The notes beneath the pieces were generated by a model, which was not told where the DNA came from, made no database searches, and saw only the letters and a list, made by a program, of their open reading frames with translations. Shown piece after piece: positions 10,916 through 27,433 of a DNA stretch of 64,000 nt. The position numbers were made by a program, and so were the translations under genes. This DNA comes from Oscillospiraceae bacterium (GTDB lineage Bacteria > Bacillota > Clostridia > Oscillospirales > Oscillospiraceae). Position 1 is the first letter of the stretch, and the number at the start of each line of letters is the position of its first letter. The stretch covers positions 124,001-188,000 of the forward strand of contig JAFYAQ010000022.1 in assembly GCA_017540645.1 (NCBI GenBank). Direction: 5' to 3'.

Positions 10916-10917
10916 AG

Positions 10918-10943
10918 ATCGGGAGGCCCAAGGGCCTCCCGAT
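10918..10943. terminator. Bidirectional terminator between MFS gene and hypB
   Basis: A perfect 12-bp stem (10918-10929 with 10932-10943), two-base spacer, T-rich on the right, lies between two convergent genes. Confidence 0.75.
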
Positions 10944-10949
10944 TCCTTT

Positions 10950-11618
10950 TTACTTCTGCCAGTCACGCACTTCCCGCCGGAGCCAGTCGTACCAGCGGTC
11001 CATGCCTTCTCCGGTCTTGGCGGAGATGGGGATGATCTCCAGACCGGGGTTTCGCATATGGGCGTTGCGTGTGAGCTTTTCCAGATCAAAGTCAAAGTAG
11101 GGCGCCACGTCCATTTTGTTCACCAGCAGCACATGGGCCACCTGGAACATCAGAGGGTATTTCAGGGGCTTATCGTCCCCTTCCGGTACGGAGAGGATCA
11201 CCGCGTTTTTCACGCTGCCGGTGTCAAATTCCGCCGGACACACCAGATTGCCCACGTTTTCCAACACCACCAGATCCAGATCCTCGGTGCCGAACTCCCG
11301 AATGCCCTGGCGGGTCATATCCGCGTCCAGATGGCACATGCCCCCGGTGTGGAGCTGGATGGCCCGGGCACCTGCAGCCGTGATGGCGGCGGCGTCCACA
11401 TCCGAGTCGATGTCCGCCTCCATGATGCCCAGCTTCATTTCGTCCTTCAGAGCGGCGATGGTTCTTTTCAAAGTGCTTGTCTTGCCGCTGCCGGGGGAGG
11501 ACATGAGATTCAGAAGGAAGGTCTTTTGTTGCTTCAGCTCCGCGCGGAGTTTGTCGGCGTCGGCGTTGTTGTCGGCGAAAATGCTCTGCTTAACTTCAAT
11601 GATCTTGTAGGGGTCCAT
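10950..11618 (-). CDS. hypB: HypB family nickel-incorporation GTPase
   Basis: A GTPase that helps deliver nickel, classically to [NiFe] hydrogenase. Visible motifs: P-loop MSSPGSGKTST (near 39-49), DIDSDVD, HTGGMCHLDADM, ENVGNLVCPAEFDTG with the metal-binding Cys, and NKMDVAPYFDFD. It has 222 residues and lacks the His-rich N-terminal nickel store and CxxCGC motif of E. coli HypB. It is the last gene of a leftward operon with three flavoproteins, 20 bp after the 2Fe-2S reductase. No hydrogenase subunit lies in this window. A hypA gene sits 16 kb away beside another Fe-S flavoprotein. Confidence 0.93.
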   Translation of the reverse strand: MDPYKIIEVKQSIFADNNADADKLRAELKQQKTFLLNLMSSPGSGKTSTLKRTIAALKDEMKLGIMEADIDSDVDAAAITAAGARAIQLHTGGMCHLDADMTRQGIREFGTEDLDLVVLENVGNLVCPAEFDTGSVKNAVILSVPEGDDKPLKYPLMFQVAHVLLVNKMDVAPYFDFDLEKLTRNAHMRNPGLEIIPISAKTGEGMDRWYDWLRREVRDWQK

Positions 11619-11637
11619 CGGTTGCCTCCCAAAATGA

Positions 11638-12822
11638 TTACAGAATGGGCACCTTCAGCTTCACGTCGCTGAGGGGGTAGGCGGCGCAGGCGTGGACGTA
11701 GCCAAAGTCCTTGTCTGCGGCCCGTCGTCCGTCGCTGACGGGGCTGACATACACATGGCCGGAGAGCACCTTGCTGCGGCAGAAGCCGCACTCGCCGCTG
11801 CGGCAGCCGGTCTCAATGCGGATGCCCGCCCGCTCCAGAGCCACAGCCAGACTCTCGTCGGCCCGTACGGGGATCACGTCCTCGTGGATGCCACGTACAA
11901 CGGTGAGAGCGAAGGTCTTGCCCTTGGCCTCCTGGGGATAGCCCTCGTACTGGCTGATATCCTTCACCGGCCCGAACACTTCAAAGCGAACCCGCCGCGC
12001 CGGCAGATCCAGCTTGTCGAACTCCTTGTAGAGGTGCAGATACATGGGCTGGGGACCGCAGACAAAGTAGGTGGTATCCTCGTGAGAGTACTTTTTGATA
12101 AGCTCCGCGGTGATAAAGCCTCGCTCGCCCTGCCAGTCCGGATCCTCTCCGGAGATCACATGGACGAAGTGGACATGCTCGCCTTCCAGCGGAGCCAGCT
12201 CCTTCCAGAGGATGATGTCGTCATGGCGCTGGGCGCCGTAGATGATGGTAAGGTCGATATCCAGCCGTCCTGCGGCCACCTCGGCGGCCATGGAGGCGAA
12301 GGGCGTGATGCCCACGCCGCCGGCCAGCGCCACCACATGGTAGGCGTCCCGCAGCGGCTCGTAGAAGAAGTCACCGCAGCCGACGATGCCGCTGAGATGA
12401 TCACCCACCTTCAGCTCGTTCCACACATAATCACTGACGAACAGCTTCCCGTCTCCGGAGCGGACCGTGACCTCCACAAAGCTGTCCTCGCCCACGGTGC
12501 ACAGGGGGGCAGAGGAGATGGAGTACGGCCGGGAGACCAGACTGTCTCCGATCTGAAAGTCCAGCACGATGTACTGACCGGCCCGGAACAGGGGCAGACG
12601 CCGTCCGTCCGCGGCCTGGAGACGGACCGTCTTGCAGGTGGAGTTGGCGGGGCGGATGTCCGTCACCACCAGTTCGATCCTACCGGGATGCAGGGCGTAG
12701 GCCACCTCATGGATGGGGTCCACCTTCACCGGCACGGGGGAGGCGTTGTCAATGGCGGATATCCGGGCCTTGGTGATCCGGGAAGCGCCGCCCACATCCT
12801 TCAAAAAGCCTTTTACTTTCAT
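11638..12822 (-). CDS. FNR-type flavin reductase with C-terminal 2Fe-2S ferredoxin domain
   Basis: An electron-transfer module: FAD domain with RAGQYIVLDFQIG and RPYSISSAP, NAD(P) domain with ALAGGVGITPFASM and YFVCGPQPMY, then a plant-type ferredoxin with CRSGECGFC and a fourth Cys in YVHACAAYP near the end. Length is 394 residues including an unusual N-terminal 50-residue extension. The gene overlaps the preceding flavoprotein gene by ATGA, so translation is coupled. The likely job is to pass electrons from NAD(P)H to the partner flavoproteins of the operon, one of which resembles saturases/desaturases and the other a fatty acid isomerase; that partnership is inferred. Confidence 0.9.
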   Translation of the reverse strand: MKVKGFLKDVGGASRITKARISAIDNASPVPVKVDPIHEVAYALHPGRIELVVTDIRPANSTCKTVRLQAADGRRLPLFRAGQYIVLDFQIGDSLVSRPYSISSAPLCTVGEDSFVEVTVRSGDGKLFVSDYVWNELKVGDHLSGIVGCGDFFYEPLRDAYHVVALAGGVGITPFASMAAEVAAGRLDIDLTIIYGAQRHDDIILWKELAPLEGEHVHFVHVISGEDPDWQGERGFITAELIKKYSHEDTTYFVCGPQPMYLHLYKEFDKLDLPARRVRFEVFGPVKDISQYEGYPQEAKGKTFALTVVRGIHEDVIPVRADESLAVALERAGIRIETGCRSGECGFCRSKVLSGHVYVSPVSDGRRAADKDFGYVHACAAYPLSDVKLKVPIL

Positions 12823-14354
12823 TTCTTCGCCGCCTCCTTTGCCATGAGATCGTCCAGGATGTTCTTGGCGGCTTTCCGCCCGTTGGTCACCTGGGGACCC
12901 ATACCGTCGCCGGAGATACCGTGAGCTCCGGCAAATTCCAGACCTTGAATGAACTTATCCTTTTCTATGGTCTGGAGCCGCGCTACCACATGATCCTTCA
13001 TATTGTGGGAATAGCCGTAAATGCAGCCGTTCCAGGCTCCGGTGTAGCGGTTGACGGTCATAGGAGTCTCAATGACGATCTCCTGGATATGATCCCGGAG
13101 ATTCACGCCGTTTTTGGCGCTCATCATGTCGATCATCTCCCCGGCGATCCGCCGGCGGGTCTCGTCGTAGTTGTCCATGGTCACGTTGTACCAGCCCTCT
13201 GGCCGGGGGAGCACCGTGATGGAGTAGGAGCACATGCCCTTGGGAGTGCAGTCGGGGTTGGCCAGGTTCAGGCAGATACAGGTGACATACTCATAGGGAC
13301 CTAAGCCGTTGTAATTTTCAAAGATATGATCGGTGTCCATGGTAGAGCCGTAGAACACGCTGTAATCGTGGATGCCCAGTTCTTCGGAAGTGGCGTCCAG
13401 CAGAAGGTTGACGCTGAAGGCGGTCAGACCGATGGTCCGGCCGTTCACCATCTTGATAGCGCCCAGGGGCACCTCGCTCAGAGGCTCGATCATGGAGGTG
13501 TAGACCTTGTTGGGGTAGGCGGAAGAGATCACGTAGTCGGCGTGGATCTCGTCGCCCCGGGCGGTGCGCACGCCGGTGACCTTGCCGTCCTTCACCAGGA
13601 TTTTTTCCACCCGCTGCCGATACTCGATCTGTACGCCCAGCGCCTCTGCCCGCTCTGCCATTTTCAGACTCATCTCATGGCTGAATTTGTGGGGGACAAA
13701 AGAGCCGTAGCCAACATAGTCGCCCATCAGGAAGGCGTAAATGGTGAAGGGCAGATCCGAGAGCTTATTGCCCACATAGATCCAGTAGGGGGACAGCAGA
13801 TCCACGGCTTCCTTGGGCAGATCAAAGGTGTCGATGACCTCCTGGGCGCTGTAGCCGGCGGTCTTGACGAACTGCTCGTGCTTCAGGAGCATCTTGGGCT
13901 TGCTCATGGGGGTGACGGACAGGACGTTCACGCTTTCCATCACCGTGTGGCAGAGGTTCAGCAGCGCCAGCACCTTGTCATAGGTCCCGGGCACCGCCGC
14001 GTCCACCTCATGGGCAAAGCGCTCCATGCCCGGGTGCAGAGTGACCTCCAGACCGGGAAGAGAGGCGTGGTAGGCCTCGGGGACCGGCAGCCAGTCGATA
14101 TCCACGCCCATATCGTCAAAGAACTTTCCCACTTTCAGGCGGTGGCCTTTGGGACCGATGGACATCATCTCATGGAGAGTGGCTTCCATCTCCATGCCGC
14201 CCCGGACAAAGCTGGTGGCCACGCCGCCGGGAAGGTTGTGCTGCTCCAGCACCAGGATGTCCAGCCTTTTGTCGGCGAGCATCAGCGCCGAGGAGAGGCC
14301 CGCCAGGGCCCCTCCCATAACGATCACGTCATAATGGTCTTTATAAAACTTCAT
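12819..14354 (-). CDS. CrtI/RetSat-type FAD-dependent oxidoreductase
   Basis: 511 residues. The N-terminal dinucleotide site is YDVIVMGGALAGLSSALMLADKRLDILVLEQHNLPGG (near 8-44), and the C-terminal FAD segment is GLEFAGAHGISGDGMGPQVTNGRKAA. Overall layout is that of the phytoene desaturase/retinol saturase superfamily, which removes or adds hydrogens across polyene double bonds. It is located between a linoleate-isomerase-like gene and a ferredoxin reductase gene. Reduction of a conjugated fatty acid double bond is a reasonable hypothesis, but carotenoid or other isoprenoid substrates are not excluded; no carotenoid synthesis genes are nearby. Confidence 0.85.
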   Translation of the reverse strand: MKFYKDHYDVIVMGGALAGLSSALMLADKRLDILVLEQHNLPGGVATSFVRGGMEMEATLHEMMSIGPKGHRLKVGKFFDDMGVDIDWLPVPEAYHASLPGLEVTLHPGMERFAHEVDAAVPGTYDKVLALLNLCHTVMESVNVLSVTPMSKPKMLLKHEQFVKTAGYSAQEVIDTFDLPKEAVDLLSPYWIYVGNKLSDLPFTIYAFLMGDYVGYGSFVPHKFSHEMSLKMAERAEALGVQIEYRQRVEKILVKDGKVTGVRTARGDEIHADYVISSAYPNKVYTSMIEPLSEVPLGAIKMVNGRTIGLTAFSVNLLLDATSEELGIHDYSVFYGSTMDTDHIFENYNGLGPYEYVTCICLNLANPDCTPKGMCSYSITVLPRPEGWYNVTMDNYDETRRRIAGEMIDMMSAKNGVNLRDHIQEIVIETPMTVNRYTGAWNGCIYGYSHNMKDHVVARLQTIEKDKFIQGLEFAGAHGISGDGMGPQVTNGRKAAKNILDDLMAKEAAKK

Positions 14355-14372
14355 GGATAATTCTCCTTATCC

Positions 14373-15761
14373 TTAGAAGAATCTCTCTACCAGCTCCCGG
14401 GAGTACTCCGCCGTCTCATCCATGTCGCCGAAGGACATGATTTCACCGGCGTAGTAGGTGTCGTACTTGCCCTGCATGGCCTCCACCTTGTCGTACCAGC
14501 CGGCGGCGTAATCCTCGCAGAACACATGGGGGAAGTAGTAGACGCTCCACTCGTTCACCACATTGGAGGCAGGGTTGTGCATGGTCTTCAGATCGTCCAG
14601 CACCATCTCCTTGCACTTGTCATAGGGGATCTCATCGGTGTCCTTGTGCTTGCGCAGGGCGTAGGTGGTGATGACCTGATCCACGCTGTCCTTCCAGCGG
14701 CGATAGTAGACCATCAGATGGCCCAGCTTTTCCTTGGTCATGTTCTCAAACACATAGTAGGAGATCTTGGGGTGATCCTCGGGCTTGGTCTCGCAGGCCA
14801 GCACGTCGTAGCGCTCATAGTCGATCTTGGAGAAGAGAGCCAGCTCGTCTTCCCGGGCGTCAAAGTACTCCACCATGCCCTTCTGACCGTCGGCGCGCTT
14901 GTTGGGGATATACAGGGGGGCGGTGACGATGATCTTGTCGTACTCCTCCACCATGCCGTTTACGGTGACGTACACCTTGCCGTCCCGGCGCTCCACCTTT
15001 TCGATGTTGCTGTTCAGACGGGCCTGGTGCTTCAGATGGTCGTTGAGCTGCTCCCAGATATACTGGGTGCCCTCCTTCCAGGTCCACAGGTTCACCTTCA
15101 CAAAGTTCATGGTGGTCTGGAAGTCCAGGTACTTCAGCACGTAGCCGGCAGGGATCTCATCAAAGTAGCCGTAGCCGAAAGAGGTATAGGGCCCGATCCA
15201 CACGTCCTGCACCAGCTCACAGCCGTTCTTCCTGCAGAATTCATTGAACGGCAGGGCCAGGTCCTTCAGATTGGGGTTCTCGCCGCTGACGGGCTCACGG
15301 CCCGGCGTCACGGCAAAGCCTTCATAGCGGCCCTCGGCCACGCCCCGGTGCCCGTTCAGATCATAGCCCTTATACTTGGTCTCCAGCAGCTCGCCGAACT
15401 TCTTGATCTGTTTTTTCATTTTCAGCAGGCGGGGGATCTTCAGAATATTCTTTTTGGGCTCAAAGGGCTCAATGACCTCGCCCTTGGCATTCTTATAGTT
15501 CCGGTTCAGCTTGGGACCGTCGTGGGTGATGCCGCAGAACTCTTCCACGTCGTGGACCGCGTAGTAGGAAGGCACGCCCATGATGGCGCCCATCTCGTAG
15601 CGGCGGCCGTTATAGTGGGGAGACCAGCACTTGCCACCTACCCGATCCTGACGCTCCAGAATATCATAGTTCTCGTAGCCCTTCTTTTCCAGGTACATGG
15701 CTGCGGACAGACCGGCGGGACCGCCGCCGACGATGCAGATGCGAATGTTTTTGTCCATCAT
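14373..15761 (-). CDS. Polyenoic fatty acid (linoleate) isomerase-like flavoprotein
   Basis: 462 residues; FAD-dependent amine-oxidase-like fold. Segments match what I recall of the Cutibacterium acnes isomerase PAI, which makes trans-10,cis-12 conjugated linoleate: GGGPAGLSAAMYLEKKGY, RRYEMGAIMGVPSYYAV, the stretch GYGYFDEIPAGYVLKYLDF, LWTWKEGTQYIWEQLN, WSVYYFPHVFCEDYAAGWYD and FYAGEIMSFGDMDETAEYS-like YYAGEIMSFGDMDETAEYS. The likeness covers the whole length, with a longer insert near residues 95-150. Predicted role: shifting a double bond in a free polyunsaturated fatty acid. First gene of a four-gene leftward operon with a saturase-like flavoprotein, a reductase and HypB. No alignment was run. 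Confidence 0.85.
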   Translation of the reverse strand: MMDKNIRICIVGGGPAGLSAAMYLEKKGYENYDILERQDRVGGKCWSPHYNGRRYEMGAIMGVPSYYAVHDVEEFCGITHDGPKLNRNYKNAKGEVIEPFEPKKNILKIPRLLKMKKQIKKFGELLETKYKGYDLNGHRGVAEGRYEGFAVTPGREPVSGENPNLKDLALPFNEFCRKNGCELVQDVWIGPYTSFGYGYFDEIPAGYVLKYLDFQTTMNFVKVNLWTWKEGTQYIWEQLNDHLKHQARLNSNIEKVERRDGKVYVTVNGMVEEYDKIIVTAPLYIPNKRADGQKGMVEYFDAREDELALFSKIDYERYDVLACETKPEDHPKISYYVFENMTKEKLGHLMVYYRRWKDSVDQVITTYALRKHKDTDEIPYDKCKEMVLDDLKTMHNPASNVVNEWSVYYFPHVFCEDYAAGWYDKVEAMQGKYDTYYAGEIMSFGDMDETAEYSRELVERFF

Positions 15762-15917
15762 TTATTCCTCCCAATGTTGAAAATATACAGGATGGCCTGT
15801 CTTGTGACATATTATAGCACACTTATACTAAAATGCACGGTTTTTTTCTTTCCGTCTCTTTTTTTTTCGTACAAAGCGTGGTATAGTCTATAAAAGGAAA
15901 AATGGGGGAGAGAGAAA
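15762..15917. promoter_or_regulatory. Divergent promoter region between isomerase and acyl-ligase operons
   Basis: A 156-bp AT-rich gap. A leftward -10 TATAAT is at 15811-15816, with no clear -35 at standard spacing. Rightward TATAGT and TATAAA stretches precede the ligase gene near 15883-15897. A pyrimidine run (about 15840-15870) lies in between. Shared control of both operons is plausible; no operator was identified. Confidence 0.5.
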
Positions 15918-17273
15918 ATGCGGTTTTCCAGCTTTCAGGAAATGCTCCGGAATTACGCGGAAACGACGCCGGAGGCTCCGGCCTTGTGGGTGCCGGGGGA
16001 ACGTGGAGCGGAGAGTATCAGCTTTTCCGTGCTGGAGGACGCGGTGGAGCGACGGAGTACGGAGCTGAAAGCCGGCGGGAAGACCTGTCTTGCTGTGTTT
16101 GCGGACGGGAGCGGGCCTTGCGTTATTACAATATTTGCCGCTGTGCGTGCCGGGCTGCAGGTGGTATTGCTGGACGATTCCCTTCCGGACGATACCGCCG
16201 CAGCGCTTATACGCTATACGGACGCGGATGCCATCTGGTCCGCCGACGATGAGCGAGTTAGCGATCTTGCCCCCGCCCTCACCGATGGGGTCACCAACGG
16301 CGTCGGACGCATCCTCTTCTTTACCTCCGGCACCACGGAACGGTCCAAAGCGGTTGTACTGACGGAGAGGAGTCTCTGCGCCAGCGCGTGGAACGGCGCG
16401 AAGAAGCTGCCCCTACAGCCTTCGGATCGGCTGCTGTGCCTTCTGCCGCTGGGTCATGTGTTCGGCTTTGTCTGCGGAATGCTGTGGGGCCTTTCCTGCG
16501 GGGCATCGGTGGCCCTGGGCCGCGGGCCGAGGCATTATATGGACGACGGGGCCTACTACTGCCCCACGGCGGTATCCCTGGTGCCTGCGCTGCTCGGCTT
16601 CTTTGTGACTCACTGGCTCTTCAACCAAGAGCTGCGCCTTCTGCTGATCGGTGCGGGAAGCTGTCCGCAGGATCTGATCCAGGCGGCCAAGGTCGCCGGG
16701 CTGCGGGTAGCCTTCGGCTATGGACTTACGGAGACCAGCTCCGGCGTAGCCATCTCCACCGGGGGAGACCCCTACGCCATGGAGATCTGTCCGGATGACG
16801 CTGTCAATATTGCCCCCGACGGAGAGATCTTGATCCATGCGCCCACCTGTATGATGGAGGGCTACTACAAGCGGGAGGCGGACACCGCCGCCGTTCTGCG
16901 GGACGGCTGGCTCCATACCGGAGACCTTGGCCGTCTGGATACAGAGGGTCGACTCTATATCACCGGGCGGAAAAAGGATATCCTGGTGCTGCCCGGCGGG
17001 ACCAAACTGTTCCTGCCGGAGTACGAAGGGGAACTGGCCGCGGCACTGGGCAATTCGGAGCTGGCAGTGGGCCTTTGCCGGGGTGTGCCGGCCCTGATCC
17101 TGAAGGACGAGCCCGACCGGGAGGGCGAGATCCGCGCGGCGATCCGACCGCTGATGGACGCCAGACCCAGGGGAGAGCAAATCGGGCAAATCGTTTTTGT
17201 AGACACGCCGCTGCCCCGCACCGCCACCGGAAAGCTCCGGCGCTGGGAGCTGGACAGACTGCTGAATTCTTAA
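15918..17273 (+). CDS. AMP-forming acyl-CoA/acyl-ACP synthetase family ligase
   Basis: Activates a carboxylic acid as acyl-adenylate. ANL motifs: FFTSGTTERSKAVVLT (A3, near 136-151), FGYGLTETSSG (A5), LHTGDLGRLDTEGRLYITGRKKDILVLP region (A7/A8) and the catalytic Lys in TATGKLRRWEL at the end. At 451 residues it is short for long-chain acyl-CoA ligases, mainly in the N-terminal half. The next gene, 16 bp on, is an acyl carrier protein, then a thioesterase, so loading onto ACP rather than CoA is likely. Fatty acid versus aromatic substrate cannot be read directly; the adjoining isomerase favours a fatty acid. Confidence 0.88.
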   Translation: MRFSSFQEMLRNYAETTPEAPALWVPGERGAESISFSVLEDAVERRSTELKAGGKTCLAVFADGSGPCVITIFAAVRAGLQVVLLDDSLPDDTAAALIRYTDADAIWSADDERVSDLAPALTDGVTNGVGRILFFTSGTTERSKAVVLTERSLCASAWNGAKKLPLQPSDRLLCLLPLGHVFGFVCGMLWGLSCGASVALGRGPRHYMDDGAYYCPTAVSLVPALLGFFVTHWLFNQELRLLLIGAGSCPQDLIQAAKVAGLRVAFGYGLTETSSGVAISTGGDPYAMEICPDDAVNIAPDGEILIHAPTCMMEGYYKREADTAAVLRDGWLHTGDLGRLDTEGRLYITGRKKDILVLPGGTKLFLPEYEGELAAALGNSELAVGLCRGVPALILKDEPDREGEIRAAIRPLMDARPRGEQIGQIVFVDTPLPRTATGKLRRWELDRLLNS

Positions 17274-17289
17274 ACAGGGGGACGATGCA

Positions 17290-17541
17290 ATGAATCGGGA
17301 AGAGATTCTGAAAAAAACCAAGCGGGTCATTTATGACTGCATGCCGGAACTGGTCGGCACGGAGCTTAGCGAGGATTCCGTAGTGAACACGGATATGGGC
17401 ATGGACTCCATGAACTTCATCCTGGTGGTGTGCAAGCTGGAGGCCCTGTTTGACGTAAAGATCCCGGAGAGGCAGTGGAACAAACTGTCCACCCTGGGCG
17501 AAGTGGTCGATGCGTTCGAAAAGCGCATCAACAAGAAATGA
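17290..17541 (+). CDS. Dedicated acyl carrier protein
   Basis: 83 residues with the phosphopantetheine attachment site DMGMDSMNF, Ser at residue 40. Helix II follows as FILVVCKLEALFDVKIP. It is acidic in the middle but has a basic N-terminus, and differs from a housekeeping AcpP by the MDSM variant of the usual DSL. It sits between the ligase and thioesterase genes, with an ATGA overlap into the latter, so it is a pathway-specific carrier rather than general fatty acid synthesis. Confidence 0.9.
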   Translation: MNREEILKKTKRVIYDCMPELVGTELSEDSVVNTDMGMDSMNFILVVCKLEALFDVKIPERQWNKLSTLGEVVDAFEKRINKK

Positions 17542-18257
17542 GAGAAGGCGTCTGGTCCCGGGAGCTGCGGCTGTTGAACCGGGATGTGGACCTTTACCGG
17601 CGGCTGCATCTGTCCAGGCTTTTTGAGTTTTTTCAGGAGGCGTCCATCGCCCATACCCAGGCCCTGGGCATGGGTCGGGAGAAAACCCTGGACCGGGGCC
17701 TGCTTTGGGTGGTGACCCGCCAGCAGGCCTTGATCCGCCGTATGCCGGAATATGACGAGCAGCTGCGGCTGCTGACCTGGCCGGGGGTGACCATGCACCT
17801 GTTTTTCCCTCGCCAGTACCGTCTGGAGACTCCGGAGGGGAAGACTCTTGTGCGCGGCAGCGCTCTGTGGATGCTGGTGGACCGGGAAACCCGCCGTTTT
17901 GTCTTCCCGGAAAATCACGGCATTGTCATCCCCGGCCTTTGCACGGATGAGGATCTGCCGCTGCCCCCTGCGCCGGCTGCTTTGCCCACAGAGGAGGAGC
18001 GCTCCTTCACTGTACCCTACAGCTATGTGGACATGAACGGCCATATGAACAACACCCGGTATTTTGACCTGGCAGAGGATTGCCTCGGGGTCGCGGCGGA
18101 GGGACGGGAGCTTATAGAGGCGGCGGTGGAGTACAAAAACGAGGCCCGCCTGGGAGAAGAGCTGAGCCTTCGCTGGGGCCGGGAGAAGGAACGGTATTAT
18201 CTCACCGGCACAGGGAACCGGCCGGTTTTCAACCTGTCGCTGACGTACCGGGCTTGA
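17538..18257 (+). CDS. Acyl-ACP thioesterase, double hotdog
   Basis: 239 residues from the ATG overlapping the ACP stop. Two hotdog repeats are visible: the first around DLYRRLHLSRLFEFFQEASIAHTQ (near 15-38) and the second around SYVDMNGHMNNTRYFDLAED (near 155-174), whose N-x-H motif matches the catalytic residues of the FatA/FatB-type family (Asn, His; DxN form). It would release free fatty acid from ACP. Together with the ligase this makes a load-modify-release cassette: acid to acyl-ACP, modification on the carrier, hydrolysis. The modifying enzymes may be the divergently encoded flavoproteins (inference). Confidence 0.88.
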   Translation: MREGVWSRELRLLNRDVDLYRRLHLSRLFEFFQEASIAHTQALGMGREKTLDRGLLWVVTRQQALIRRMPEYDEQLRLLTWPGVTMHLFFPRQYRLETPEGKTLVRGSALWMLVDRETRRFVFPENHGIVIPGLCTDEDLPLPPAPAALPTEEERSFTVPYSYVDMNGHMNNTRYFDLAEDCLGVAAEGRELIEAAVEYKNEARLGEELSLRWGREKERYYLTGTGNRPVFNLSLTYRA

Positions 18258-18276: not shown

Positions 18277-19788
18277 ATGAGAAAGAGAGGAGCCCTGGCG
18301 GCTCTGCTGGCGGCGCTTTTGCTGCTGCTCCTTGCACCAATGGCCCTGGCGGACGACAGCACTACGCTCACCGCCGTCCGGAACGAGTATATCCGGGTGC
18401 TGATCGACATGCCCAACGGCTCCACCATGCGTTCTCATCGGGTGGAGAGCGGGGAGATGGCCCCCGGCTTGAGCCTGCGGGCGGAGGGGGAGGGCCTTGG
18501 ATTGTTCGGGACCCCCAACACCTTGGGCAACTGGTCCGTCACGGTCCGCTGCACGACGGACGACGGCGAACTTCTGCTGACCATCCATCAGTATATCATC
18601 GCTTCCTCTGCGCCTCCCGCTGTGGGGATCGCGCCGACAGCCGCTCCGGCGGAGGCGGCAGGATCCATGGCGGAGCCGGAGCAGGAAATGACGGCCGAGC
18701 CTCAGCCGACGCCCCCCCCTGCGGCTACGCCGGTCCCCACGCTGGCTCCCACTCCGGAGCCCACCCTGGCGCCTACCCCGGAGGGACGGCCCGTGATCCG
18801 CAAGGAGCCCTCCGGCGAGACAGTGACACGGGGCGGCACGGCCATCTTTGTGGCCCGGGCAGACGGCGCGGCTGAGATCGTGTGGTATCTGCTGGATAAC
18901 AGCGGAGAGGCCGAGATGCCGGCTCAGCAGGCCACGGAGTTCTTTTCCGGACTGCGGATCTATGGCCAGGGCACCGAGACCCTGACCGTCAGCGGCATCC
19001 CCTCCGGTCTGAACGGCTGGCGGGCAGAGTGCCGCTTTATCGGCCCCACAGGCACGGTAGCCGTCTCTGACGACGCCGTTATCACGGTCCGGGAGAAAGG
19101 CATCTCCTCGCCCGGTCTGATATTCGATCCCCAAAAAGTGGAACTTTACACCGGAGAGAGCGTAACTCTCTCGGTCAGCGCTCTGCCCCCAGAGGGCGCT
19201 ACGGTTCGATATCAGTGGTATTCTACGGATAAATACGATCTGGCCAGCGTCAAGGCCATCGAAGGGGCCACGGACACCAGCTTTACGCCCCCCTTCATAC
19301 CGGGCACTTTGTACTATTGCGTGGGTGTGCGCAGCGTCCGTACGTCCAACGGAGAGGAAAGCTCCACAGCGTATTCCGATCTGGCGGAGATCCGCTGCAT
19401 CGAAGGAGAACGGACCCACGAGCACGTGTTTTCCAGCTACTGGCTGGCGGACGGCGTGAGTCACTGGCACGGCTGCGACTGCGGACAGCGCCAGGACGAG
19501 GGTGAGCATGAGATCGATTGGACCGTGATCCGCAGAGCCACGTCCCGACGGGACGGGGAGCGAAGAGGCGTATGCCGGGTCTGCGGCTATGAGGCTCGGG
19601 AGACCATCGCTGCAGGCGCGGCGGAGCGTACAGACACCGCACGGATCGTACTGGCGGTGCTGGCCGGACTGGTGATTTTGCTGATTCTGATGGGGATCAT
19701 CCTTCTCAGCCGCCGGAGTCGGCGCAGAAGACGTTCCCGTCGGCCTCGCAGCCGAACATACCACAGCACTCACACGCCCCGGCGATAG
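18277..19788 (+). CDS. Secreted, membrane-anchored Ig-like protein with Pro/Thr-rich stalk
   Basis: 503 residues: signal peptide (1 to about 25, ending MALADD), an N-terminal domain of unknown family, a Pro/Thr-rich linker with PTLAPTPE repeats (about 140-170), an Ig-like or Big-type region (RKEPSGETVTRGGTAIFVAR onward), a second with SVTLSVSALPPEGATVRYQWYS, a Cys/His-rich segment (THEHVFSSYWLADGVSHWHGCDCG, CRVCGYEA) and a C-terminal membrane helix plus Arg-rich tail. The topology is extracellular with an inside tail. The HxH-CxC and CxxC pattern could bind metal. Function unknown. It follows the thioesterase by 19 bp but may have its own role with the next two genes. Confidence 0.75.
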   Translation: MRKRGALAALLAALLLLLLAPMALADDSTTLTAVRNEYIRVLIDMPNGSTMRSHRVESGEMAPGLSLRAEGEGLGLFGTPNTLGNWSVTVRCTTDDGELLLTIHQYIIASSAPPAVGIAPTAAPAEAAGSMAEPEQEMTAEPQPTPPPAATPVPTLAPTPEPTLAPTPEGRPVIRKEPSGETVTRGGTAIFVARADGAAEIVWYLLDNSGEAEMPAQQATEFFSGLRIYGQGTETLTVSGIPSGLNGWRAECRFIGPTGTVAVSDDAVITVREKGISSPGLIFDPQKVELYTGESVTLSVSALPPEGATVRYQWYSTDKYDLASVKAIEGATDTSFTPPFIPGTLYYCVGVRSVRTSNGEESSTAYSDLAEIRCIEGERTHEHVFSSYWLADGVSHWHGCDCGQRQDEGEHEIDWTVIRRATSRRDGERRGVCRVCGYEARETIAAGAAERTDTARIVLAVLAGLVILLILMGIILLSRRSRRRRRSRRPRSRTYHSTHTPRR

Positions 19789-19836
19789 AAGGATTTCCAT
19801 TACAAAAATATCTTAGATACGGGAAGGAGCGGCAAT

Positions 19837-21120
19837 ATGGGACTGATCAAAGCGGCTCTGGGCTCTGCGGCCGGTGTGCTGGGGGACCAGTGGAAGGATT
19901 ATTTCTATACAGATGCTCTGCCGGAGAACGTTCTGGCGGTGAAAGGCCGGAAAAAGGGGAGAGGCGGCAGCGATAACATCATTTCCAACGGCTCCGTCAT
20001 TGCGGTGGCCAGCGGCCAGTGCATGATGATCGTGGAGCAGGGCAAGGTGGTGGATCTTTGCGCGGTACCCGGTGAGTACGTATACGATATCTCCACAGAA
20101 CCCAGCATTTTCGCCGGAGGAGATCTGGCGGACAATCTGATGAAGGTTTTCCAGAACATCGGAAAGCGCTTCACCTTCGGAGGTATGCCGCCCAAGGACC
20201 AGCGGGTCTACTATTTCAATACCAAGGAGATCATGGGCAATAAGTACGGGACCCCGGCCCCGGTGCCCTTCCGTGTCGTAGACCGGAATATCGGGCTGGA
20301 TATGGATATCGCCATCCGCTGCTTTGGGGAGTACAGCTACCGCATGACCAATCCGCTGCTGTTCTATACCAATATCTGCGGCAATGTGGAAGCCCCCTAT
20401 CTGCGCTCTCAGCTGGACGGTCAGCTGAAGAGCGAGCTGCTCACGGCTCTGCAGCCTGCCTTTGCCAAGGTCTCCGAGCGTGGCGTACGCTATTCCGCCC
20501 TGCCCGGTCACACCATGGAGGTGACCCAGGCTCTGAACGAGGTCCTCTCTCCCAAATGGCGGGATCAGCGGGGCATCGAACTGGTGGCTGTGGGCATGAA
20601 CAGCGTCCGGGCCAGTGAGGAGGACGAGAAGACCATCAAGGAGCTGCAGCGCACAGCAGCTCTCCGGGACCCCAATATGCGGGACGCCTACATGACCAAC
20701 GCCAAGGCCGCCGCGGTCCAGTCCGCCGCCGCCAACCAGAGTGCCGGACCGGCCATGGCTTTCATGGGCATGAACATGGCGGATGCCATGGCCCAGCCGG
20801 TCCATAGCCAGAGCGCGGCTACTGTGCCCGCTGCGGCGGCGAACAGCTGGACCTGTCCCGGCTGCGGGGCCCTCGCTACCGGGAAGTTCTGCCCGGAGTG
20901 CGGCACGCCCCGGCCCGCTGCCGGCGGCTTCTGGACCTGCCAGAGCTGCGGCACCAGGAACAAGGGCAAGTTCTGCACCGAATGCGGGGCAAAGAAGCCC
21001 GCCGGAGTACCCCAGTATAAATGTGACAAATGCGGCTGGGAGCCGGCGGACCCTGCCCATCCTCCCAAGTTCTGCCCCGAGTGCGGAGATCCCTTTGACA
21101 ATGGGGACATAGTGTCCTGA
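19837..21120 (+). CDS. SPFH-domain protein with three C-terminal zinc ribbons
   Basis: 427 residues. The N-terminal 290 residues match the SPFH/virion core protein type (YdjI-like; MGLIKAALGSAAGVLGDQWKDYF and PENVLAVKGRKK at the start). A Met/Ala-rich linker follows (about 295-330), then three zinc ribbons: CPGCGALATGKFCPECG, CQSCGTRNKGKFCTECG and CDKCGWEP with CPECG. No signal peptide. Such proteins are often encoded with stress or membrane-remodelling genes. Neighbours here are two Pro/Thr-rich surface proteins, so a membrane-associated scaffolding role is possible but unproven. RBS GGGAAGGAG-like sequence precedes the ATG. Confidence 0.82.
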   Translation: MGLIKAALGSAAGVLGDQWKDYFYTDALPENVLAVKGRKKGRGGSDNIISNGSVIAVASGQCMMIVEQGKVVDLCAVPGEYVYDISTEPSIFAGGDLADNLMKVFQNIGKRFTFGGMPPKDQRVYYFNTKEIMGNKYGTPAPVPFRVVDRNIGLDMDIAIRCFGEYSYRMTNPLLFYTNICGNVEAPYLRSQLDGQLKSELLTALQPAFAKVSERGVRYSALPGHTMEVTQALNEVLSPKWRDQRGIELVAVGMNSVRASEEDEKTIKELQRTAALRDPNMRDAYMTNAKAAAVQSAAANQSAGPAMAFMGMNMADAMAQPVHSQSAATVPAAAANSWTCPGCGALATGKFCPECGTPRPAAGGFWTCQSCGTRNKGKFCTECGAKKPAGVPQYKCDKCGWEPADPAHPPKFCPECGDPFDNGDIVS

Positions 21121-24539: not shown

Positions 24540-24649
24540 TTATTGACAAAATACCCAGACGAGCAAGATAGATTAACATATTTGAACAAAGCAGAAACGT
24601 ATTTGAAAAAGAAAAGAGCTTAGACCTATCGGAAATGGAGGAAAGCGAT

Positions 24650-27433
24650 ATGGCGTCATTGACCCGCGACGAGAAAATCTTCAAGCTGGGCAAGATCATC
24701 ACCGACCGCAAGGAGGTCATGCTGGGCCTTGAAAAGGTATCCACAGAGTCTCCGGAGTACTGGGGCATCGACTGCGGTATGCAGTATGTGCAGAGGCGCT
24801 ACGGCAGGGAGGTAGAGACCGACTGCCTGGATCTGGCCCTGCTGATGGGCAAGCGCAAGCCCAAAACCTTTGCCCAGCTCCAGAAGCTATGCGGCTATGA
24901 TGACGCCCGGCTGGAGAAGACGCTGGAGGCCCTGTGCCAGGCGAGCCTGGTGGAATACCACAACGAGAATCTGGACGGGAAAAACCCCAACCACGAAAAG
25001 CGCTGGGTGCTGGATATGTTCGTGCCCGGCAGCGCGGAGATCATGGTCATGCGGCCGGAGATCTCTCCCGTGACGCCCAAGGTGGCCGACTTCTTTGAGC
25101 GTATGACCTATCTGCCTCTGGCGGGCATTACCCAGATGGTGCCTCCCGGCGGCGGCGGGATCGGTATGCATGTGATTCCGGTGGAACAGGCCATTCCCGC
25201 CGAGTGTGAATCCCTGGATATCGAGCATCTGAGCCACTGGCTGAAAAAATACGAGGGGCAGATCGGCGTGGGCATCTGCTCCTGCCGGAAGCAGCAGCGC
25301 ATCCGGGGCGAAGGTTCCGGCGATATCGAGCAGTACTGGTGCATCGGCGTGGGCGATTTTGCCGACTACTGCCGGGAGACCGGCATGGGCCACGATATCT
25401 CCTATGAGGAAGCCATGGAGATCTTCCGCAAGGCCGAAGAAAAGGGCTATGTCCACCAGATCACCAATATCGACGGTGAGAACAAGATTTTCGGTATCTG
25501 CAACTGCGCCGTCGGTGTTTGCAACGCCCTTCGCACCTCCCAGCTTTTCAACACACCGAACATGTCCCGTTCCGCCTACACCTCCGAGGTGGACCCCGAA
25601 AAATGCGTGGCCTGCGGCAAGTGCGTGGAGGTCTGTCCCGCCGGCGCGGTCCGTCTGGGTCAGAAGCTCTGCACCAAAAACGGCGAGATCGAATATCCCA
25701 AGGCGGAGCTGCCCGACAGCAACACCTGGGGCGAGGACAAGTGGAACTGGAACTATAAAAACGAGAACGGAATCATCCAGACCTGGCCCACCGGCACGGC
25801 TCCCTGCAAGGCCGCCTGCCCCCTGCATATCGCCATTCAGGGCTATATCAAGATGGCCAGCGAGGGCAAGTACCGGGAGGCTTTGGAGCTGATCAAGCGG
25901 GACAACCCCTTCCCGGCAGTCTGCGGCGCCATCTGCCGCAAGTACTGCGAGGACGAATGCACCCGGGGCACGGTGGACGAGGCTCTGGCCATCGACGATA
26001 TCAAACAGTTCATCGCCGCCCAGGATCTGAACGCCGAGCACCGCTATGTGCCGCCTATGCGTTCCTGTACCCGAGAGCCCTTTGACCAGAAAATCGGCAT
26101 CATCGGCTCCGGCCCCGCCGGCCTGAGCTGCGCCTACTTCCTGGCCATCGAGGGATACTCTCCCGTGGTGTTTGAAAAGGACGCGATTCCCGGCGGCATG
26201 ATGACCACCGGCATCCCCAGCTTCCGGCTGGAGAAGGACGTAGTCAACGCGGAGATCGATATCCTCAAGGAGATGGGCGTGCAGTTCCGCTGCGGCGTGG
26301 AAGTCGGCAAGGACGTCACCATCCAGCAGCTGCGGGATGAGGGCTTCAAGGGCTTCTTTGTGGCCATCGGCCTCCAGTACGGCGGCAAGCTGAATGTGCC
26401 CGGCGATGACGCCGAGGGCGTCATGCCCGGCGTAGACTACGTAAAGCAGGTGAATATGGGTGCCGCGGCTCCTCTCAGCGGAAACGTGGTGGTCATCGGC
26501 GGCGGCAATATCGGCGCGGACGTGGCCCGAACCTCCATCCGCCAGGGGGCCGAGAGCGTGAAGCTCTACTGCCTGGAGTCCTGGGACGAGATGCCCATGG
26601 GCGCGGAGGATCAGGAACTGTGCCGGGCCGACGGCGTGGAGATCCACGACGGCTGGGGCCAGACGGAGATCATCACCGCAGACGGAAAGTGCGCCGGCAT
26701 CAAGTTCCGCAAATGTGTCAGCGTGAAGAACGCCGAGGGCCGCTTCGATCCCAAGTTTGACGACAATGAGACCACCTCCGAAAGCTGCACGGCCGTCCTC
26801 TACTGCATCGGCCAGAAAGCCCTGTGGAAAGATCTGCTGGCCGGAACCAAGGTGGAATTCAACCGCAACGGTACCATCAAGGCCGATCCCGTGACCCTGC
26901 AGACCGCGGAGCCCGACATCTTCGCCGGCGGCGATGCCTATGCCGGCCAGAAGTTCGTGGTGGACGCTCTGGCCATGGGCCGGGAGGGCGCTGTGTCCCT
27001 GCACCGATTTGTCAACGAAGGCCAATCCCTCACCATCCACCGCAACACCCGTCACTTTGCGGCGCTCAACAAGGACGACGTGGTCCTGCCCGTGGACGCC
27101 TACAAGAAACCCGGCAGGGCTGTCAAGGGCGTGGACGCCGCAAAGATCCGCACCATGCGCGATGAGCGCCTGATCTTCACCGAGGAACAGATCAAGTCTG
27201 AGGCCTCCCGCTGCCTGGGCTGCGGCCGGAGCGTAGTGGACACCAACAAGTGCCTGGGCTGCGGTATGTGTACCGTCCAGTGCAAATTTGACGCCATCCA
27301 TCTCAAGCGCACCATGGGCGACGCTTACTCCAAGATGATCCCTGCGGAGGATAAATTCAAGGCCATGGGCGCCTATGTTGCCAAACGTGGTGTGAAGATC
27401 CTAAGGAAGTCTGTTTCCAAAGCCGGAAAATGA
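24650..27433 (+). CDS. Multidomain 4Fe-4S/FAD NAD(P)H oxidoreductase, GltD/NfnB-like
   Basis: 927 residues from ATG 24650, preferred over ATG 24635 because GGAGGAA lies just upstream. Order of parts: an N-terminal domain with many cysteines (GICSCRKQQRIRG, FGICNCAVGVCNA); a ferredoxin motif CVACGKCVEVCPAG (near 318); the GltD-type N-terminal cluster domain (CKAACPLHIAIQGYIKMA, VCGAICRKYCEDEC); an FAD site KIGIIGSGPAGLSCAYFLA (near 482-500); an NAD(P) site VVVIGGGNIGADVART; and a C-terminal ferredoxin motif CLGCGMCTVQCKFD. The family moves electrons between NAD(P)H and ferredoxin or a partner enzyme. It is followed 19 bp later by hypA. Partner unknown. Confidence 0.85.
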   Translation: MASLTRDEKIFKLGKIITDRKEVMLGLEKVSTESPEYWGIDCGMQYVQRRYGREVETDCLDLALLMGKRKPKTFAQLQKLCGYDDARLEKTLEALCQASLVEYHNENLDGKNPNHEKRWVLDMFVPGSAEIMVMRPEISPVTPKVADFFERMTYLPLAGITQMVPPGGGGIGMHVIPVEQAIPAECESLDIEHLSHWLKKYEGQIGVGICSCRKQQRIRGEGSGDIEQYWCIGVGDFADYCRETGMGHDISYEEAMEIFRKAEEKGYVHQITNIDGENKIFGICNCAVGVCNALRTSQLFNTPNMSRSAYTSEVDPEKCVACGKCVEVCPAGAVRLGQKLCTKNGEIEYPKAELPDSNTWGEDKWNWNYKNENGIIQTWPTGTAPCKAACPLHIAIQGYIKMASEGKYREALELIKRDNPFPAVCGAICRKYCEDECTRGTVDEALAIDDIKQFIAAQDLNAEHRYVPPMRSCTREPFDQKIGIIGSGPAGLSCAYFLAIEGYSPVVFEKDAIPGGMMTTGIPSFRLEKDVVNAEIDILKEMGVQFRCGVEVGKDVTIQQLRDEGFKGFFVAIGLQYGGKLNVPGDDAEGVMPGVDYVKQVNMGAAAPLSGNVVVIGGGNIGADVARTSIRQGAESVKLYCLESWDEMPMGAEDQELCRADGVEIHDGWGQTEIITADGKCAGIKFRKCVSVKNAEGRFDPKFDDNETTSESCTAVLYCIGQKALWKDLLAGTKVEFNRNGTIKADPVTLQTAEPDIFAGGDAYAGQKFVVDALAMGREGAVSLHRFVNEGQSLTIHRNTRHFAALNKDDVVLPVDAYKKPGRAVKGVDAAKIRTMRDERLIFTEEQIKSEASRCLGCGRSVVDTNKCLGCGMCTVQCKFDAIHLKRTMGDAYSKMIPAEDKFKAMGAYVAKRGVKILRKSVSKAGK

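Follow-up and report, generated by a model that had tools for sequence, protein, structure and literature searches.

The window analysed here, 64,000 nucleotides of contig JAFYAQ010000022.1 (positions 124,001 to 188,000) from an Oscillospiraceae bacterium (assembly GCA_017540645.1; 2.34 Mb, 32 contigs, completeness estimate 100%), carries two divergent operons that form one conserved six-gene cassette. Its genes encode a flavoprotein resembling the fatty acid double-bond isomerase PAI of Cutibacterium acnes, a flavoenzyme of the CrtI/CRTISO/RetSat superfamily (CrtI-like), an NAD(P)H-dependent FAD/2Fe-2S reductase (FNR), an acyl-adenylate ligase, a dedicated acyl carrier protein (ACP) and an acyl-ACP thioesterase. 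With moderate confidence we propose that this cassette acts on dietary polyunsaturated fatty acids (PUFA), first isomerising and then hydrogenating them. A first-pass annotation, made from the DNA letters, had suggested such a system with HypB as a seventh member. All seven open reading frames (ORFs) were located where it had placed them, with the same order and overlaps (Table 1), and were assigned to families by Pfam and NCBIfam; the start of the thioesterase was moved.

Conservation of the six-gene cassette

A scan of species genomes yielded 296 relatives, and the counts for the cassette refer to the 80 most similar loci (85-90% identity). Among loci with at least 4 kb of upstream sequence (n = 66), tblastn detected the ligase in 65, the thioesterase in 65 and the ACP in 60, and CrtI and FNR were each present in 63/63 loci where the downstream sequence reached 4 kb or more. 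All six core genes were detected by tblastn in 49 of the 55 loci with flank on both sides, and a diverged ACP ORF fills the gap in five of the six loci that gave no tblastn match for the ACP. The strands were as expected in nearly all loci with sufficient flank; L028 is without the ligase-ACP-thioesterase triad. Conserved outer flanks were considered and rejected, as the outer genes of the window (MFS, DUF362, SPFH, Ig-like) are each found in 1/80 loci. Because the six genes recur while these outer genes do not, their grouping is more than chance. HypB was rejected as a core gene, being found near only 19/80 loci, so that of the seven-gene co-occurrence first envisaged the six-gene core has survived.

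The PAI-like isomerase

The PAI-like product matches C. acnes PAI (2B9W) over its full length with an identity of about half, and its predicted model superimposes on 2B9W with a root mean square deviation of 1.5 Å over 421 residues. R87, F195 and F220 of the window protein correspond to Arg88, Phe168 and Phe193 of PAI, which we take to be substrate and tunnel residues. Across 40 aligned rows they are retained in 39, 40 and 40 cases, respectively, the single row without the arginine being L124 (66% identical). The proposed PAI-like identity is thus borne out by sequence, including the tunnel, where the model itself is weak. The window protein differs from 2B9W by an insertion of 26 residues (140-165) in place of 4 and by 10 extra residues in the region 284-298.

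The CrtI-like enzyme and its reductase

The best NCBIfam match of the CrtI-like protein is the carotenoid isomerase TIGR02730 with 93.8 bits (cut-off 586.9), followed by crtI_fam TIGR02734 with 90.2 bits (cut-off 238.1), so that it scores below both curated carotenoid cut-offs; its fold is that of the superfamily. No RetSat was among the matches listed, and these data do not separate the subclasses RetSat, CRTISO and CrtI. The affinity to carotenoid enzymes that the first-pass annotation had named as a point of refutation is therefore partly present: the nearest solved structure is indeed a carotene desaturase (4REP, 17% identity), but the scores lie far below the family cut-offs, and in the order sample the close subfamily is confined to PAI carriers. 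Relatives of CrtI at E 1e-60 or better occur in 20/394 genomes of the order; at least 50% identity is reached in seven, all among the eight PAI carriers. The other 13 genomes, together with second copies in G000 and G286, gave 31-35% identity, and G333 is a PAI carrier without a close CrtI. The closest named match to the CrtI of the window (98%) is labelled Oscillospiraceae.

FNR is a constant partner of this enzyme. It adjoins CrtI at every locus with enough flank, a feature added to the low identity by which the protein stands apart from its superfamily, and also adjoins 14/14 CrtI relatives outside the cassette. The CX4CX2C..C motif is present in 72/72 full-length cassette FNRs, and CrtI and FNR distances correlate with r 0.94. 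A second CrtI-FNR pair, with identities of 32% and 44%, lies beyond the window in the source genome (C4:104135-106860, corresponding to L133:5135-7860), next to an aldehyde dehydrogenase; the order sample contains 13 further genomes with a pair of this distant type.

Ligase, ACP and thioesterase

The ligase has an adenylation domain with catalytic motifs and adjoins a cognate ACP, as expected of a fatty acyl-AMP ligase or acyl-ACP synthetase. The TGD aspartate and the C-terminal TGK lysine are retained in 66/66 aligned full-length copies, the window's among them; a W-x-x-TGD pattern, found in 3/65 ligases, had been too strict and was replaced by the alignment. Among solved structures, CoA ligases match it best, and transfer to the ACP is predicted. 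An ORF with the DS motif was detected between thioesterase and ligase in 70/70 loci with a loosened pattern and in 59/70 with a stricter one. The thioesterase has 2own, 4gak and 2ess as solved relatives and carries both PF01643 and PF20791 as well as the N-x-H-x-N-N motif; a motif of this type was found in 60/70 loci and not found in the other 10. In L074 and L076 a second ligase copy lies past the thioesterase, with a MATE transporter adjoining.

Proposed pathway and alternatives

PAI acts on free fatty acids, and the retained arginine favours a free acid as substrate here, which is why loading is placed after isomerisation. In the first step PAI would shift a double bond of the free acid in a redox-neutral FAD reaction, converting 9c,12c linoleate to 10t,12c conjugated linoleic acid (CLA). 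The ligase would then activate the conjugated acid and load it onto the dedicated ACP, where the CrtI-like flavoenzyme may saturate one bond of the conjugated diene, being kept reduced by electrons from NAD(P)H through the 2Fe-2S FNR. Finally, the thioesterase would free a trans-10 monoene. Loading and release would be futile unless something acted on the acyl-ACP in between. The cell might benefit from removal of toxic PUFA and from an electron sink. The single pathway of loading, isomerisation, reduction and release proposed at first is partly supported, both halves being conserved together; its substrate and step order we infer, as we do the product, the direction of the CrtI-like reaction and the ACP as its site.

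Several points weigh against this proposal. The activities of the cassette are all predicted; since PAI uses free acids, isomerisation can do without an ACP, and the sequence of steps is conjectural. The PAI-like model is weak near the tunnel (pLDDT 57-67 for residues 191-200 and 211-230), and PAI distances co-vary only moderately with those of the partners (r 0.37-0.44). For the CrtI-like enzyme, the nearest solved structure belongs to a desaturase, and NCBIfam ranks a carotenoid isomerase first, both far below cut-off. Conservation was observed for relatives of 85-90% identity, the 80 most similar of 296, and more distant PAIs break the set: of three such copies, two in G286 (61-66%) and one in G333 (52%), none adjoins CrtI-FNR. 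One G286 copy keeps ligase, ACP and thioesterase, and the other two are without nearby core genes. The habitat labels given below are uncorrected for the make-up of the genome collection. In the rumen study PMC10019597, the differences reported between groups concern BBI and LAI genes, not PAI.

It is unlikely that CrtI and FNR constitute a second isomerase resembling plant CRTISO, with FAD reduced by FNR, that alters double-bond geometry after PAI, so that the cassette would release a specific conjugated acid. CRTISO needs reduced FAD, an FNR partner is equally compatible with such a reduced-flavin enzyme, and TIGR02730 just outscores crtI_fam. But both scores are far under their cut-offs, structure ranks the carotene desaturase first, and a constant NAD(P)H reductase partner would be costly for a redox-neutral enzyme.

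Similarly improbable is that two pathways merely adjoin, with PAI, CrtI and FNR working on free acids and ligase, ACP and thioesterase serving fatty acid uptake or recycling, the two being linked only through the promoter region between them and perhaps through a common inducer. The free-acid substrate of PAI would suit this division, as would G286, where the PAI with the ligase triad has no adjoining CrtI-FNR and the CrtI-FNR pair is on another contig; nevertheless, loading followed by release is sensible only if the acyl-ACP is acted upon, and within the close clade hardly any locus has one half without the other. Least probable of the three is a re-use of the PAI fold for another unsaturated acid or lipid in place of dietary C18 PUFA, which the identity of about half to PAI and the two insertions might indicate, but which the retained tunnel residues, the close superposition of the model and the ruminant-gut labels, as expected for a PUFA-rich habitat, argue against.

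Distribution and evolution

The distribution of PAI is patchy. At E 1e-40 or better it was detected in 8/394 genomes of the order, in 1/398 of the phylum, which is the window's own, and in 24/400 of the family, including 3/9 same-genus genomes listed. By hand count, the record titles of the 80 loci name a ruminant host or organ in 29 cases, carry a RUG label in 35 and do not state the habitat in 16.

In six genomes, PAI identity exceeded that of rpoB in 15/15 pairs (85.5-89.6% vs 65.2-84.6%). Recent transfer as the reason for this high identity was rejected for these genomes, as PAI divergence at four-fold degenerate sites was within 11 points of rpoB in 15/15 pairs. PAI four-fold sites were often near the base-composition expectation (for example, 25 observed and 26 expected). 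The four-fold sites of PAI being about as diverged as those of rpoB, strong constraint and not recent exchange is therefore indicated. Some older transfer among certain carriers is nonetheless likely, because CrtI kinship departs from rpoB (80% vs 68% for G237-G366; 87% vs 71% for G071-G379) and because L064, a metagenome-assembled genome (MAG) labelled Coriobacteriaceae, shows 86% identity for PAI and 55% for rpoB. The rpoB of L061 and L086 is 55-56% identical over ~425 residues. GC content of the cassette locus is about that of the rpoB locus in L064 and L061, which speaks against misbinned contigs without excluding them.

Relation to known systems and to ruminal biohydrogenation

C. acnes PAI is likened to the window protein by full-length homology, predicted fold and the residues compared; it has been studied singly on free acids, whereas here PAI stands in a six-gene cassette. 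The CLA-HY/CLA-DH/CLA-DC system of Lactobacillus plantarum likewise converts linoleate by several enzymes under one operon but goes via hydration to a 10-hydroxy acid, and the part of its description consulted mentions neither ligase nor ACP (PMC13365329). Such a hydration route was rejected for the source genome, in which the MCRA oleate hydratase PF06100 was not found (0/1). A JamA-type fatty acyl-AMP ligase also loads an acid onto a dedicated ACP for modification; a desaturase and further assembly follow, where the cassette has a predicted reductase and a thioesterase (PMC11837247). Jamaicamide assembly, as described there, shows that modifying an acid while it is bound to its own carrier protein does occur in nature. 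Candidate ladderane clusters of anammox bacteria also hold CrtI-superfamily proteins beside ACPs, with acyl-ACP desaturation or reduction proposed. These clusters contain cyclase-type radical SAM and Fab genes, their function is unproven, and PAI, FNR and thioesterase are not named in the portion seen (PMC4790861).

The composition had been thought undescribed, and for the cassette as a whole no description was found among the papers listed from the open-licence PMC literature, although a paper may exist elsewhere. PAI-type genes as such have already been reported: seven rumen MAGs carry PAI (BLAST, at least 40%), one of which tracks t10,c12-CLA in milk, and the words reductase, ACP and operon are absent from the main text, with no cassette described there (Zhang et al., 2023; PMC10019597). 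LAI-type genes are ascribed to Butyrivibrio in the same text, although the authors of a Butyrivibrio genome paper did not detect a linoleate isomerase gene (PMC6249431). Ruminal biohydrogenation sets the amounts of PUFA, CLA and trans fat that reach milk and meat. Its enzymes were called little known in 2018 (PMC6037716). The t10,c12-CLA formed in the trans-10 branch is a strong inhibitor of lipogenesis in the mammary gland and the foremost hypothesis to account for milk fat depression, with the producers responsible for the trans-10 shift unsettled (PMC9853040).

More tentatively, the cassette might supply the genes, so far missing, by which uncultured clostridia carry out ruminal biohydrogenation along the trans-10 branch. 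Linoleate would be isomerised by PAI and attached to a dedicated ACP; there a new CrtI-family diene reductase, dependent on NAD(P)H, would reduce it before its release as a trans-10 monoene, the genes having spread among ruminant-gut Bacillota and reached MAGs labelled Coriobacteriaceae and Sphaerochaetaceae. If so, the CrtI superfamily would gain a reductive enzyme that has an NAD(P)H-dependent partner of its own. The cassette offers candidate genes, a readily recognised metagenome marker and six proteins for expression.

Locus layout

The minus-strand run comprises PAI, CrtI, FNR and HypB, with a terminator-like hairpin just beyond HypB, and the plus-strand run of ligase, ACP and thioesterase starts from the divergent region between them. 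The FNR and CrtI genes overlap by 4 nt. The thioesterase probably starts at the ATG overlapping the ACP stop (ATGA) rather than at an upstream GTG. A pattern TGCA(A/T)T, 11-16 nt and a TATAAT-like element directed towards PAI was found in 26/57 divergent intergenic regions, compared with 0.1 expected from mononucleotide shuffles, and its unusual -35 part may be a regulator site. Behind the thioesterase, an Ig-like membrane protein gene and an SPFH/zinc-ribbon gene (18277-21120) are retained among the 80 loci only in L017, the sole locus sharing the outer flanks of the window and likewise labelled Oscillospiraceae.

Table 1. Features of the cassette locus, in window positions.
Feature	Position	Strand	Basis
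PAI-like FAD fatty acid double-bond isomerase, 462 aa	14373..15761	-	matches 2B9W in fold and, over its full length, in sequence
CrtI/CRTISO/RetSat-superfamily FAD enzyme, 511 aa; predicted conjugated-diene reductase	12819..14354	-	
FNR, NAD(P)H-dependent FAD/2Fe-2S reductase, 394 aa; predicted electron donor of CrtI-like enzyme	11638..12822	-	PF00970, PF00175, PF00111
HypB-like GTPase, accessory	10950..11618	-	TIGR00073, 252 bits (cut-off 121)
Acyl-adenylate ligase, 451 aa; predicted fatty acid loader of ACP	15918..17273	+	PF00501
Dedicated acyl carrier protein, 83 aa; attachment serine within DSM	17290..17541	+	PF00550
Acyl-ACP thioesterase, FatA/B type, 239 aa from ATG 17538	17538..18257	+	PF01643, PF20791
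Divergent promoter region separating both operons, 156 bp	15762..15917		sequence
Promoter-like TGCATT-N15-TATAAT facing PAI	15811..15837	-	pattern common to other cassettes
Terminator-like hairpin between HypB and MFS gene	10917..10944		12 pairs and T tail

Optional neighbours

HypA/HypB and a ~940-aa Fe-S flavoprotein (GltD-like and 4Fe-4S domains) are optional neighbours of the cassette. The window HypB retains C95, H96 and C127, presumably its metal site. HypB forms a tandem pair in 13 of the loci that have it, and HypA is found in 24/80. The large subunit of [NiFe]-hydrogenase (PF00374) was found in 0/23 carrier genomes (own 0/1, others 0/22), 16/23 of which have no completeness estimate; these genomes cover 16/19 HypB-bearing loci. 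The ~940-aa flavoprotein is the commoner neighbour, occurring in 46/80 fetched stretches and directly behind FNR in 34; by our estimate, from about two close copies per 2.34-Mb genome, ~2% of loci would have the gene within 10 kb by chance. HypB and HypA lie near it in L018, L022, L037, L042, L061, L091 and others. The window itself encodes a 932-aa Fe-S/GltD-like flavoprotein at 24635-27433 (+), 55% identical to the protein behind FNR in many cassettes, and a closer copy (77%) is located on another contig (C8:5937-8747).
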